DNA of 64,000 bases from Arthrobacter sp. ISL-30 (GTDB lineage: Bacteria > Actinomycetota > Actinomycetes > Actinomycetales > Micrococcaceae). The stretch spans positions 62,001-126,000 of the forward strand of contig NZ_JAGGPK010000025.1 in assembly GCF_018613855.1 (NCBI RefSeq), in the 5' to 3' direction. The translations under genes were made by a program, and so were the position numbers. A model generated the notes under the pieces. The model was given only the letters and a program-made list of their open reading frames with translations, was not told the DNA's origin and searched no databases. Positions 13,618 through 18,235 of this stretch are shown here, piece after piece; position 1 is the first letter of the stretch, and every line of letters starts with the position of its first letter.

Positions 13618-14049
13618 ATGGACGATTCTCTACTGCCGTTCATCGCCCTGGCAACGGCGCTTTCGTTGCTGATTTTTACACTGTGCCTGTTTGGGGTGCG
13701 CCGCCATAACCTGCGGCGCGCCCTGGGCACGGTCGACGCCTCCATCCGCATGGCCAATCATGGCTGGCAGATGGGGGTTTGTCGTTATCAGGACACGGAG
13801 CTCGAATGGTTCCGGCTGCTGTCCCTGAGTGTGCGTCCCAAGCACAGGTTCCGCCGGAGTTCACTCGAATTGCTGGGGCGCCGCAAGCCATCGGACGATG
13901 AACTCGTCAAAGTGCAGCCCGACGTCGTCATTGTCGAATTGCGCCACGAAGGCGAGACCGTGCTGCTGGCCATGAACTTCGACGCCTATGCAGGGCTATC
14001 GTCGTGGCTCGAGGCCGGTCCCGTCATCGGTGTTGGCACCTGGCGCTGA
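13618..14049 (+). CDS. DUF2550 family membrane-anchored protein
   Basis: A 143-residue protein with one N-terminal membrane helix (about 5-27, LPFIALATALSLLIFTLCLF) followed by a basic linker and a cytosolic domain (RHNLRRALGTVDASIRM, then VELRHEGETVLLAMNFDAYAGL). This architecture, immediately after atpC, is the actinobacterial DUF2550 family, whose function is not known to me. It begins 10 nt after atpC and so probably belongs to the same transcript. The ATG at 13618 is used; a TTG one codon earlier is possible. Confidence 0.82.
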   Translation: MDDSLLPFIALATALSLLIFTLCLFGVRRHNLRRALGTVDASIRMANHGWQMGVCRYQDTELEWFRLLSLSVRPKHRFRRSSLELLGRRKPSDDELVKVQPDVVIVELRHEGETVLLAMNFDAYAGLSSWLEAGPVIGVGTWR

Positions 14050-14051
14050 GC

Positions 14052-15365
14052 GTGGATTTCTTATCCGTGGATTTCCTAGCCGACCTCAGTCTAGTGGACG
14101 GGCCGCTGTGGTGGTTCAGCATCCTCGCGGGTATTGGCGGTGCACTCTTCCTGTTGTGGCGCCGGTCCGGGAAATGGCCGCTATACGTTGGTGCGGCCGT
14201 GCTGCTGGCAGTGGGCACCGTCCTGCTGGTCCATTGGCTGCTGATATTCGTGACCTCCACTTTTCCGGCGGAGCTTCCCCCGGAGGTCCTGGCGTGGTCA
14301 ATCCCGCCGGTGGCCGCCCTCTTCCTGTTGTTGTTGAGGATCCCTCGCGCTTCCTGGCGTGGACGCGCAGCCGGTGTGGTTGCGGTCCTCGGTGTGGTGC
14401 TCCTTTCTTCGGTGCAGATCAATGGGTACTTTGGCCTGCACCATACCCTCGGTGACCTGATGGGAACTGCAGTGGCGCGCATTCCACCCCTCGAGGAAAG
14501 CCTCAAGCGGCAGCCTGCGCCGGCCGAAGCAGTGCCCCTTTCCCAGTGGCATCCCACTGATGACCTGCCGACGGACGGCATCCTCCGAAAGGCCTCCATT
14601 CCCGGGACTGTTTCCGGTTTTGAGGCACGGGACGCCTTTATCTACCTTCCACCGGCCTACCAGGCTGCCCAGCGTCCCTCGCTTCCTGTCCTTGTGCTCT
14701 TCTCGGGCCAACCCGGCGCGCCGTCCGACTGGCTGACGGGAGGGGCGCTGCGAAGCCATATGGACCGCTTCGCGGCCAGCCATAACGGAATCGCCCCGGT
14801 GGTGGTGGTGGCCGATCCCAACGGCACCCCCGACGGAAACACGCTGTGCCTGGACAGCAGGATCGCGAAGGCCGATACCTATTTGTCCCAGGACGTGACC
14901 AGTTGGATCAGGCAGAACCTTGACGTCGACGCCGATCCCGGAAAGTGGGCTGTCGGAGGCTTCTCCTTCGGCGGGACATGTGCCATGCAGATGGGCACGC
15001 GCCATCCCGAAATCTTCACTTCCATCCTGGCTTTCTCCAGCGAGAAGGAACCGGCCCTGGCGAAGGAGCGCCGAAAGACTATAGAGGCTGCGTATGGCGA
15101 CGACGAGGCCGCCTTTGACCAACAAACGCCCCTGACGCTCATGGCGCAGAAACGCTATCCGGGCAGCGCGGTGTACTTCGGCGCCGGAGCCCGGGATCCG
15201 GAATTCATCGGCTATATGAACCTGTTGGCGAATGCTGCCCGCAATGCCGGTTTCAGCGTTAAAACGACGGAAATAGCCAACACTGGCCACTCCTGGGATG
15301 CGCCATCAATGGGGATGGCGGATGCGCTCGGATTCCTTGCGGCGCGCTGGGGGATCCAGGAATGA
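14052..15365 (+). CDS. Membrane-anchored esterase, candidate aminoacyl-lipid hydrolase
   Basis: A 437-residue protein with four hydrophobic segments in the first ~125 residues, then an extracytoplasmic alpha/beta hydrolase of the esterase D/antigen 85 type. The nucleophile elbow is GGFSFGGT (about residue 300), an acidic residue is available in GARDPEF, and the histidine lies in NTGHSWDA near the C-terminus. GTG at 14052 is the first start after the DUF2550 stop; a GTG at 14067 is also possible. The stop overlaps the start of the MprF-type gene (ATGA), so the two are coupled. Esterases of this kind next to aminoacyl-phosphatidylglycerol synthases (AhyD in Enterococcus) remove the amino acid from the lipid; I infer a similar role. 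Confidence 0.75.
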   Translation: MDFLSVDFLADLSLVDGPLWWFSILAGIGGALFLLWRRSGKWPLYVGAAVLLAVGTVLLVHWLLIFVTSTFPAELPPEVLAWSIPPVAALFLLLLRIPRASWRGRAAGVVAVLGVVLLSSVQINGYFGLHHTLGDLMGTAVARIPPLEESLKRQPAPAEAVPLSQWHPTDDLPTDGILRKASIPGTVSGFEARDAFIYLPPAYQAAQRPSLPVLVLFSGQPGAPSDWLTGGALRSHMDRFAASHNGIAPVVVVADPNGTPDGNTLCLDSRIAKADTYLSQDVTSWIRQNLDVDADPGKWAVGGFSFGGTCAMQMGTRHPEIFTSILAFSSEKEPALAKERRKTIEAAYGDDEAAFDQQTPLTLMAQKRYPGSAVYFGAGARDPEFIGYMNLLANAARNAGFSVKTTEIANTGHSWDAPSMGMADALGFLAARWGIQE

Positions 15366-17896
15366 GTTTGGCCGAGGCAACTCCGGCATCGCTCTCTTTC
15401 ATGATCCGGACGGCGATGCGGCGCGCCCTGGACCATTTCCGGTCCACACCGTTCACCCTTCTGGTCCTGTTCATCTTCCTCGGGACCGCTGCCGTGACGG
15501 GAAGCTTCCTCGGCGGTCCTCCAGAGTCATTGCTTCGGCATGCGGGCGTCAGCCTGGGCGGGCTCAAGGCCGGAGAATGGTGGTCCATCTGGACGTCCCT
15601 GTTCTTTGCCACAAACCCCCTCGCCTATGTGACGGCAAGCCTGATGATCCTGGTCCTGCTGGGGTTGGCAGAGCGGAACCTTGGCACGGTCGCAACCGCG
15701 GCTGCCTTCTTCGGTGGCCAGTTTGTGAGTCTTACTGTCTACCTGCTCATTACCCAGCTGGCCCGTTACGCCGACGACGGGTGGCTGGGTTCTATGGCAG
15801 AGACGCGCCTGATCGGTCCCTACGCCGCGGTCCTTTCCGCCACGCTCGCCGCCAGCGGCCTGCTTCCGGCGCTCTGGCAACGCCGGCTCCGCGCGGCTGT
15901 TGTCTCGATAGCCCTCCTGCTTGTGCTGTACATCGGCCATGCGGAAACAGTAGTCGGGCTCCTTGGTGCCCTCAGCGGCCTGGCCGTGGGATTCTGGATC
16001 CAGAGCGATCACGGAACGCTGCACCTCCACCGCTCCACGGGACGCGAGGTCCGTAATCTACTGGCCCTGATGGTGGCCATTTTCGCAGTAGGCCCTATTT
16101 TGACCGCCGTCGCCAAGAGCCCTGCGGGGCCCTTGGCGCTCCTCCGTGACGTGGTCCTCAACCCGCTGCCGACACTGACCCAGCTCGAAGCAAACTGCGG
16201 AGGCAGCGTCGACGTCAGCTGCCTTGAGCTGGGACGCCAGCCCTACAACGGGCCCTTTGGGCTGGCCTTGGCCGTGGTTCCCATCGTGCTCCTGCTCATT
16301 TGTGCGGACGGCATGAGGCGAGGCCGTCGGATGGCGGCCCGGATTGCTGTCTTTATGCAGCTGGGCCTCGTCGCCCTGTCCACCGTGTATCTCGCGCTAT
16401 TTGCCATGATCCCCAATTACTCGGGCCGGCCGCACCGGGCCTTGCTCAGTTCCGGTTTTGTCCACATCCTGCCCCTTGTCCTGGTTCCGCTTGTCCTGGC
16501 CGTCCTCCTCTTTGCGTATCGGGGACACTTCCGGGTGGAATCGGGGGCCCGGCTGCGTAGAAGGGTGGTGTGGCTGGTAGCGGGAACATGGTTGTTCTTG
16601 AGTGGTGCGTACACAGCTACCTGGTTCGCGGCCGGGGGCTTAACGCGCGACGGCGGCTGGCAGGGACTGCTTTTGGAACTGTCCCGCCAATACCTGCCCG
16701 TGCCGATCCCGGGCTCCTACAACAGGATCTTCGCCGGCCGGGATCCCCTCGAATCGTTTCTGTTTTCCTGGTCCGGAATAATCTTCTGGCTGGTGGCGCT
16801 GGCCGCTGTCTGGCTGTTACTGCTTCGACGCCACCATGGGACGTTGTCCGGGGACGACGATCGGGCGAGGGCCAGGTCCCTCGTGAAGCGGGGTGGTGAC
16901 TCGCTGTCCTGGATGGCCCTCTGGGAACCAAACAAATACTGGTTCAGTCGCAGCGGGGAGGCCGCGGTCGCCTATCAGCAGCATGGAAACGTGGCGCTGA
17001 CCCTGGCCGGACCCTTCGGCCGACGCGATCAACATGCGGCGGCGGCAGCGGAGTTCATGGAGTACTGCGCCGAACATGCCCTTGTGCCCTGCTTCTACTC
17101 CTGCACCGACGAACTCTGGCCAATGCTCAGGGCGCGCGGCTTCCAGCGGGTTGCCGTAGCGCAGGAGACACGGCTGGACATACGCTCGCTGGAATTCAAG
17201 GGCAAGGAGTGGCAAAACGTTCGCACGGCACTGAACCGCGCCAGGAAAATGGGGATCGAGGCGGTCTGGGGCAAATACTCCCACCTGCCACAGCATCTGC
17301 GCGCGCAGCTGAGTGAGGTGTCCGAGGAGTGGGCCGCCCAGAAAAAAGTCCCCGAGATGGGCTTCACATTGGGGAGTGTGGATGAACTCATGGACGAGGA
17401 CGTCCTTTGTTGCCTGGCCGTGGATGCAGACGGCCTGGTCTACGGGGTCACCAGTTGGCTGCCTGTCTATGAAGAGGGCAAAGTAGTGAGCTGGACCCTG
17501 GACTTCATGAGGCGGAGGGGCGATGGATTCCCCGGCGTCATGGAATTCCTGATCGCGTCTGCAGTCCTTGAACTTCGTTCCTCTGTGGAAAGGATCTCGC
17601 TCTCGGGGTCTCCGCTGGCGAGGGGTCCGGAGGATAGTGAACGTGGCGAGATAGAGCGCCAGGCTGTGGGCCTGGCCGGGATACTGGACGTGGTGGGGCA
17701 CGCCCTGGAACCCGTCTACGGGTTCCGTTCCCTGGCGACTTTCAAGTCCCGCTTCCAGCCGGATTATCGGACGCTCTACATGTTTTATCAGGACCCGCTG
17801 CAATTACCCGCCATGGGCCGGGCATTGACCCGGGCCTATCTCCCGGGACTCTCCGTCAGGCATTCAGCACGCCTGCTGAGGAAGCTTGTTGCCTGA
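15362..17896 (+). CDS. MprF-type aminoacyl-lipid synthase with rhomboid-like membrane domain
   Basis: An 844-residue protein. The C-terminal ~330 residues are a DUF2156/LPG-synthase domain (GNAT-like) that moves an amino acid from aminoacyl-tRNA to a membrane lipid. Visible motifs are WEPNKYWFSRSGEAAVAYQ, ALNRARKMGI, VVSWTLDFMRRRGDGFPGVM and the late RFQPDYRTLYMFY. The membrane half (about 13 helices) does not begin like a normal MprF flippase: residues 70-108 (GEWWSIWTSLFFATNPL and later GLAERNLG) match the L1 region of rhomboids. The catalytic GxSG is replaced by GPYA at 152-155, and GHAE stands at 192-195. So it is probably a rhomboid-fold pseudoprotease fused to a synthase. Substrate amino acid and lipid are unknown. 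Confidence 0.8.
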   Translation: MSLAEATPASLSFMIRTAMRRALDHFRSTPFTLLVLFIFLGTAAVTGSFLGGPPESLLRHAGVSLGGLKAGEWWSIWTSLFFATNPLAYVTASLMILVLLGLAERNLGTVATAAAFFGGQFVSLTVYLLITQLARYADDGWLGSMAETRLIGPYAAVLSATLAASGLLPALWQRRLRAAVVSIALLLVLYIGHAETVVGLLGALSGLAVGFWIQSDHGTLHLHRSTGREVRNLLALMVAIFAVGPILTAVAKSPAGPLALLRDVVLNPLPTLTQLEANCGGSVDVSCLELGRQPYNGPFGLALAVVPIVLLLICADGMRRGRRMAARIAVFMQLGLVALSTVYLALFAMIPNYSGRPHRALLSSGFVHILPLVLVPLVLAVLLFAYRGHFRVESGARLRRRVVWLVAGTWLFLSGAYTATWFAAGGLTRDGGWQGLLLELSRQYLPVPIPGSYNRIFAGRDPLESFLFSWSGIIFWLVALAAVWLLLLRRHHGTLSGDDDRARARSLVKRGGDSLSWMALWEPNKYWFSRSGEAAVAYQQHGNVALTLAGPFGRRDQHAAAAAEFMEYCAEHALVPCFYSCTDELWPMLRARGFQRVAVAQETRLDIRSLEFKGKEWQNVRTALNRARKMGIEAVWGKYSHLPQHLRAQLSEVSEEWAAQKKVPEMGFTLGSVDELMDEDVLCCLAVDADGLVYGVTSWLPVYEEGKVVSWTLDFMRRRGDGFPGVMEFLIASAVLELRSSVERISLSGSPLARGPEDSERGEIERQAVGLAGILDVVGHALEPVYGFRSLATFKSRFQPDYRTLYMFYQDPLQLPAMGRALTRAYLPGLSVRHSARLLRKLVA

Positions 17897-18031: not shown

Positions 18032-18235
18032 CTAGACGACAGTTACGCCGGTAGCCTGCGGTCCCTTGGCGCCCTGGCCGATCTCGAACTGAACGCGCTG
18101 GTTCTCATCGAGGGTCTTGAATCCGCCGGTCTGGATCTCAGAGTAGTGAACGAAGACATCCCCATCGGAGTCGTCCGGGGTGATGAAGCCAAAGCCCTTT
18201 TCGGCGTTGAACCATTTGACGGTTCCCAGTGCCAT
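18032..18235 (-). CDS. cspA: Cold-shock protein (CspA family)
   Basis: Single-stranded nucleic acid chaperone of 67 residues forming one OB-fold. RNP1 (KGFGFITPD) and RNP2 (VFVHYSEI) are intact, with [11 protein letters not shown] at the N-terminus. A good GGAGA ribosome site lies just upstream of the ATG. The region upstream is unusually AT-rich and structured for this window, in keeping with the long regulatory leaders known for csp mRNAs. Confidence 0.96.

Follow-up and report, generated by a model that had tools for sequence, protein, structure and literature searches.

A predicted rhomboid-fold domain lacking the catalytic dyad, fused to an aminoacyl-lipid synthase domain and paired with an esterase gene in Arthrobacter sp. 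ISL-30

Overlapping esterase and synthase genes

We analyzed a 64,000-nucleotide stretch of the Arthrobacter sp. ISL-30 genome (contig NZ_JAGGPK010000025.1, positions 62,001 to 126,000; here called the window), in which two overlapping genes encode a membrane-anchored esterase and a protein that joins a rhomboid-like membrane domain to a lysylphosphatidylglycerol (LPG) synthase domain. The features of this gene pair, in window coordinates, are as follows.

14067..15365, plus strand: membrane-anchored alpha/beta-hydrolase esterase, PesT-like by gene arrangement (PF00756 Esterase, E = 1.2e-18)
14964..14966, plus strand: esterase nucleophile Ser305 (GFSFGG); with Asp382 (15195-15197) and His413 (15288-15290), the presumed triad
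15362..17896, plus strand: rhomboid-LPG-synthase fusion protein, 844 amino acids (aa)
15434..16006, plus strand: rhomboid-fold domain, residues 25-215 (AlphaFold2 [AF2] model, structure comparison, hhalign)
15815..15826, plus strand: GPYA, residues 152-155, with Tyr154 in the catalytic Ser column (column mapping)
15938..15958, plus strand: His193 (15938-15940) to Gly199 (15956-15958), with Gly199 in the catalytic His column
16028..16861, plus strand: second membrane region, residues 223-500, with about six hydrophobic segments (hydropathy)
16880..17788, plus strand: LPG_synthase_C (GNAT-like aminoacyl-tRNA:lipid transferase) domain, residues 507-809 (PF09924, E = 1.3e-78)

An original prediction, made from the sequence alone, had described two open reading frames (ORFs) overlapping by 4 nucleotides, and this overlap is present (ATGA; 15362-15365). 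The esterase start that it assumed (14052) was revised; GTG 14067 is the likelier start, since the starts of most orthologues line up with it.

The PF00756 match covers residues 194 to 402 of the esterase (numbering from 14052) and is preceded by four hydrophobic segments. The loops between segments 1 and 2 and between segments 3 and 4 are positively charged, so that the hydrolase domain probably lies outside the membrane. Ser305, Asp382, and His413 are invariant in all 16 aligned esterases; we assign them as a triad on the basis of membership in the alpha/beta-hydrolase family. Among 43 loci obtained from a genome_contigs search, 39 have an esterase beside the synthase gene, 38 of them upstream (L041 as two pieces) and one downstream (L043); none was found beside the synthase in L035, L037, L042 (contig edge), and L044. 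The L041 esterase (L041:3635-4983) consists of two separate ORFs and may be broken or mis-sequenced.

The C-terminal part of the synthase is a normal LPG synthase domain, as predicted. The PF09924 match is complete (profile positions 3 to 298 of 298; 264.6 bits), and relatives in the PDB include MprF, LpiA, and LysPGS/AlaPGS chains. A Pfam scan of the whole synthase up to an E value of 1 returned PF09924 only, with no PF03706 flippase and no tRNA-synthetase domain. The later part of the second membrane region resembles the transmembrane (TM) region beside the synthase in MprF and LysX. The NCBIfam MprF model aligns only from residue 370 onward, and the LysX model aligns only with residues 308 to 825. 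Within the MprF model (841 positions), the alignment begins at position 413 for the window protein and at positions 368, 375, 441, and 445 for the four relatives tested; this late beginning suggests that the rhomboid part replaces approximately the first 370 to 440 positions of MprF.

Rhomboid identity and the catalytic columns

The membrane part of the synthase was predicted to begin like a rhomboid, and the motifs on which this rested are present (i.e., GEWWSIWTSLFF, residues 71-82; GLAERNLG, 101-108; GPYA, 152-155; and GHAE, 192-195). A domain-only AF2 model (residues 18 to 225) built with 37 Arthrobacter-group rows reached a predicted local distance difference test (pLDDT) score of 87.7 and a predicted template modeling (pTM) score of 0.84. 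In a full-length model with 37 rows, the membrane part was poor (mean pLDDT, 61.5), and the domain-only model was used for the fold searches. In VIA-align, the domain matched GlpG (Z = 16.7; root mean square deviation, 3.0; 173 aligned residues) and iRhom complexes (Z = 13.4 to 15.8), with the best other row at a Z of 6.1. The top 36 rows in Foldseek were all GlpG or iRhom-complex chains (probability, 0.98 to 1.00; next row, 0.08); the best E value was 2.2e-3, with none at 0.001 or below. Neither list contained an MprF chain, which proves nothing alone.

Profile comparisons gave the same assignment. The alignment A1 and the profile A4 each comprise 37 rows, namely, the window protein and proteins from 36 of the 43 genome_contigs loci (34 orthologues and 2 paralogues, L043 and L044). 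With hhalign, A4 matched 15 standalone relatives at 98.3% (E = 2.4e-14; 192 columns), and a wider profile, A2, matched standalone relatives at 99.3% (E = 4.7e-20). All five standalone proteins checked belong to PF20401 (Rhomboid_2), above the cutoff. The controls remained low, at 1.2% and 0.2% for the middle membrane region and 0.2% for A4 versus the only PF03706 region compared (L265). The rhomboid-like character of the membrane part is therefore upheld beyond chance. The comparison between a rhomboid and an MprF flippase fold, which the original prediction had proposed as a check, came out as rhomboid, and no flippase homology was found.

Several results weigh on the other side and would suit a diverged MprF flippase domain that is rhomboid-like by composition only. 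The window domain misses the Pfam rhomboid cutoff (PF01694; 16.8 bits versus 22.6), five of 10 diverged relatives have no rhomboid match in Pfam up to an E value of 1, and hhalign found no match to one canonical rhomboid of the same genome (0.4%). Likewise, a search of PDB sequences with the A2 profile (hmmsearch) yielded iRhom2 only, at an E value of 8.4, so that sequence alone fails to reach GlpG. However, two of the diverged relatives pass the PF01694 cutoff (L060, 23.6 bits; L061, 25.4 bits), three others (L062, L063, and L066) lie near the PF20401 cutoff, and PF03706 is missed by Pfam and hhalign alike. Given the structure and profile results, we regard a diverged flippase as very improbable, and as far as prediction goes it is refuted.

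Column mapping places Tyr154 at the catalytic serine, in line with the predicted change of the serine motif to GPYA. Residue 154 is Tyr in 35 of the 37 A1 rows and Phe in the remaining two, with Ser in none. GHAE had been proposed to stand at the rhomboid histidine; it does lie in the right helix, but His193 occurs six residues before the catalytic column, which is occupied by Gly199. Both residues are conserved (His193 in 35/37 A1 rows; Gly in column 199 in 35/37), and His193 is not the rhomboid histidine. The window protein thus lacks the GxSx serine and histidine dyad that characterizes rhomboid proteases.

Fusion proteins fall into two types by the distance between their rhomboid and synthase domains. 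None of the 25 long-linker fusions (268 to 301 aa; the type of the window protein) has both Ser and His, while 22 of the 30 short-linker fusions (140 to 225 aa) do, or 27 if Thr is allowed. Column 199 is His in 28 of these 30 and in 20 of 20 standalone proteins typed. Ser and His are both present in all 20 standalone proteins typed with the fusions and in 70 of the 82 rhomboid-like hits of a larger set; of the 12 hits without a visible pair, L191 carries Asp and the other 11 are gapped in at least one of the two columns. Position 193 is His in 13 of the 25 long-linker rows and in none of the 30 short-linker rows, and this His may mark a reworked pocket near the start of the former active-site helix. 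Glu104, Trp172, and Arg175 are conserved in both fusion types (long-linker rows: E104, 24/25; W172 and R175, 25/25), and six residues (G71, W73, W74, E104, R105, and G108) are invariant in all A1 rows. At least five changes of dyad state occur on a tree larger than that of synthase domains described below, and three of these changes are forced by well supported branches. From these results, we are highly confident that the N-terminal domain has a rhomboid identity and has lost the dyad. The dyad-keeping fusions L066 and L063 come from outside the class of the window genome, within the same phylum only.

The presence of Ser and His in the standalone relatives and in most short-linker fusions, together with the repeated changes of dyad state, could also be explained by a regulatory remnant. 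Under this explanation, the ancestral fusion would have been an active intramembrane protease whose target was the esterase, its synthase partner, or an anti-synthase factor; in the window branch, only the fold would have been kept, for stability or trafficking. We consider this unlikely, since the conservation of E104, W172, and R175 in the long-linker type and of the six residues invariant in A1 is more than a remnant needs.

Family distribution and modular layouts

A single-sequence query of a phylum sample matched 13 of 396 genomes, one of them through a standalone gene. With profile A2, matches were obtained in 113 of 394 genomes of a class sample and in 111 of 151 genomes of family f6 (fusions and standalone genes pooled in both cases). 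All 30 class-sample matches with E values of <1e-19 (the window's own included) are rhomboid-LPG-synthase fusions; among the weaker matches fetched, only L125 has the LPG domain in the same ORF. When synthase domains were placed in a tree, a single branch set 36 fusion rows (support, 96/99; 37 rows and 100/100 if L125 is included) apart from the 30 other LPG synthases and from six with a rhomboid gene as a neighbor. On the larger tree used for the dyad state, the rows nearest to the Arthrobacter group are L263 and L264 (joined at 92/76). The architecture, which had been called unusual for MprF, is indeed unusual among described MprF proteins, but it belongs to a widespread actinobacterial family. 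In the open-licence literature searched, we found no paper joining rhomboids and MprF/LPG synthases in this sense. Paenarthrobacter aurescens TC1 carries a second copy (L043:4968-8772) that is 43% identical to the window synthase and has its esterase downstream.

We also scored 81 loci around the weaker A2 hits of the class sample (the last 28 hits were left out). Eighty of these loci hit one of three models, and an LPG synthase lies within approximately 6 kb in 10 of the 81. Three of the latter (L180, L185, and L203) were excluded as partners, with the LPG synthase approximately 5 kb off on the other strand; in the other seven (L125, L139, L193, L202, L210, L225, and L230), the rhomboid is fused to or directly beside the LPG synthase. 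A rough calculation from assumed averages predicts approximately 0.27 such cases. L193 and L210 are close relatives, as are L225 and L230, and the tree forces only three changes of the neighbor label on supported branches.

The layouts of these loci are diverse. L139 (416-5741) carries, on one strand, a LysX-type gene, an esterase gene, and a Rhomboid_2 gene in this order, and L230 (5693-10138) carries an LPG synthase gene, an esterase gene, and a Rhomboid_2 gene, again on one strand. Both esterases match the profile of the window esterase, and the two three-gene runs are a split form of the window's system. In L193 (2327-5354) and L210 (1088-4212), rhomboid-like genes of the same strand stand to either side of the LPG synthase gene, and L202 and L225 have the rhomboid and the LPG synthase as adjacent genes. 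L125 (3248-5776) is a reverse-order fusion with a dyad-keeping rhomboid-like domain at the C terminus of the LPG synthase; it sits beside the fusion clade at the end of a very long branch and may thus have arisen by rearrangement rather than by independent fusion. In L265 (4500-8571), a gene of the same esterase family precedes the gene for a classical MprF of the flippase type (PF03706 plus PF09924), so that the flippase and the rhomboid occupy the same slot and look interchangeable. To us, these modular layouts are the strongest argument for placing the rhomboid part in aminoacyl-lipid metabolism and for its ability to replace the flippase.

The gene pair sits behind the F-ATPase operon, from which it is separated by a DUF2550 gene.

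13618..14049, plus strand: DUF2550 gene, immediately upstream of the esterase gene and following the F-ATPase genes (PF10739, E = 5.5e-39)

An upstream atpD is present in 40 of 42 orthologous loci (L002 to L042 and L113), and contig ends truncate the remaining two. Of the 22 paralogous or more distant loci that we examined, none has atpD upstream. A scan for promoters and terminators gave chance-level results (2 versus 1.3 and 4 versus 4.5). A small ORF on the minus strand (18032-18235), which we take to be cold-shock-protein-like from its motif, is convergent with the synthase gene. The window synthase is the sole PF09924 protein of the genome, with no second, LysX-type paralogue, and two separate Pfam rhomboids are encoded elsewhere in the genome.

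Proposed role in aminoacyl-lipid metabolism

The window protein combines features of several known systems. It shares with MprF (a bifunctional aminoacyl-phosphatidylglycerol synthase/flippase) the C-terminal synthase domain and the adjoining membrane segments, but a rhomboid fold stands in the place of PF03706, which was not detected. Like LysX (an LPG synthase with a lysyl-tRNA synthetase), it joins a membrane part to a synthase domain; unlike LysX, it has no tRNA-synthetase domain, and the LysX-type gene of L139 has its Rhomboid_2 gene and esterase gene as separate neighbors. With Rhomboid_2 (PF20401), GlpG, and the pseudo-rhomboids iRhom and derlin, it shares the fold, the GLAERNLG turn, the WW motif of loop 1, and the W-R loop between helices 4 and 5; it differs from rhomboid proteins in Tyr154 for the catalytic Ser, in Gly199 for the His, and in its fusion to a lipid synthase.

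For the esterase, the original prediction had turned to AhyD, an aminoacyl-phosphatidylglycerol hydrolase of Enterococcus faecium. By description, the two are alike as hydrolase partners of an aminoacyl-lipid synthase; the window esterase itself belongs to PF00756 and carries four hydrophobic segments at its N terminus. This comparison is less apt than one with the pesT-alaDAGS pair of Corynebacterium glutamicum, which the window pair appears to resemble more. The likeness is one of arrangement (i.e., an esterase gene upstream of a gene for a membrane protein with an LPG synthase domain, in an actinobacterium), and its esterase part goes back to a 2015 study by Smith et al., in which pesT reportedly is a putative esterase gene encoded upstream and needed for alanyl-phosphatidylglycerol (Ala-PG). 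According to Gill et al. 2023 (PMC10580965), alanyl-diacylglycerol and Ala-PG are absent from Corynebacterium pseudotuberculosis without alaDAGS. Neither the word "rhomboid" nor the word "esterase" occurs in the text of that paper.

The two genes very probably constitute an aminoacyl-lipid operon. As the best overall explanation, we propose an operon of the pesT-alaDAGS kind for aminoacyl-lipid synthesis and remodeling with a pseudo-rhomboid as a non-proteolytic lipid module, an explanation to which we give even weight for and against. In this scheme, the synthase would move an amino acid from aminoacyl-tRNA to a lipid of the inner leaflet. The rhomboid fold without protease residues, standing where MprF carries its flippase domain, would work non-proteolytically, its locally thinned bilayer and lateral gate binding the aminoacyl lipid or translocating it to the outer leaflet, where the membrane-anchored esterase would then remove or transfer the aminoacyl group. 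The computations show the gene pair, the complete synthase domain, the conserved Ser, Asp, and His of the esterase, the rhomboid fold, the dyad loss, and the repeated association of rhomboid, synthase, and esterase; we infer the lipid substrate, the amino acid, the translocation, and the topology and reaction of the esterase. Lipid binding or translocation is favored because an outer esterase needs the product across the membrane, the synthase has no detectable MprF flippase, and the rhomboid fold thins the bilayer. This last property is described for the derlin pseudo-rhomboid Dfm1 (PMC8641752) and in a review (PMC12615303). Two further reports are distant hints only: the deletion of the two C. 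glutamicum rhomboids raised the levels of phosphatidylglycerol, phosphatidic acid, diacylglycerol, and phosphatidylinositol (PMC8899591), and the mycobacterial rhomboid Rv1337 was recovered as an MmpL3 partner, as was the MprF-like translocase Rv0204c (PMC6656915). Taken by itself, a lipid-handling role of the rhomboid domain seems to us about equally likely to be right or wrong.

Several observations argue against this explanation. To our knowledge, lipid translocation by a rhomboid fold is not established, and derlins move proteins. Ser and His are kept in 22 of the 55 typed fusions, which leaves a protease or hydrolase as a possible ancestor of the domain, and for 34 of the 55, the fetched sequence contains no same-strand esterase. 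Moreover, the C. pseudotuberculosis AlaDAGS is described with six predicted TM helices (PMC10580965), fewer than in the window synthase.

The esterase neighbors bear on two alternatives. A same-strand esterase accompanies one of the 22 dyad-keeping fusions versus 20 of the 33 dyad-less ones. The esterase labels were set by hand and include downstream cases (L043 and L119) and one approximately 3 kb upstream (L263), while an esterase on the opposite strand, as in five fusions (L104, L109, L114, L121, and L276), was not counted. This difference is concentrated in a few clades and is not significant when independent pairs are compared (sign test; only three such pairs on supported branches), and a strict dyad-or-esterase rule has exceptions in L268 (dyad kept, same-strand esterase) and L272 (short linker, esterase present). 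These counts agree, though without significance by independent pairs, with a recruitment of the rhomboid fold into lipid chemistry, in which the Ser/His dyad of the relatives would hydrolyze or transfer the aminoacyl ester in the membrane; the window branch would have lost the dyad, a separate esterase would have taken over, and the fold would have become a lipid conduit. We rate this history as improbable, slightly more so than the regulatory remnant.

The adjacency of an esterase to 20 of the 33 dyad-less fusions would also suit a scaffold for protein interaction or quality control, like that of iRhoms, with the pseudo-rhomboid docking the esterase or client proteins to the synthase without lipid contact. 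The iRhom1/2 complexes rank with the nearest solved structures by fold, and the pseudo-rhomboids described so far mostly handle proteins, according to a review (PMC12615303). However, the fetched stretch shows no same-strand esterase for 13 of the 33 dyad-less fusions (e.g., L044, L060, L064, L065, L267, and L277), and standalone rhomboids also pair with synthases where there is no esterase hit (L193, L202, and L210). A scaffold is accordingly a tentative alternative, clearly less probable than the non-proteolytic lipid module, though the likeliest of the others.

The known rhomboids either act as proteases or, as pseudoproteases, handle proteins. Their fusion or pairing with aminoacyl-lipid synthases across a large actinobacterial family suggests a role related to lipids, possibly new for the fold. 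The family also offers a simple test of the route by which aminoacyl lipids reach the outer leaflet where synthases lack the MprF flippase domain. Since aminoacyl lipids affect sensitivity to cationic antimicrobials, the role of this module is of practical interest.

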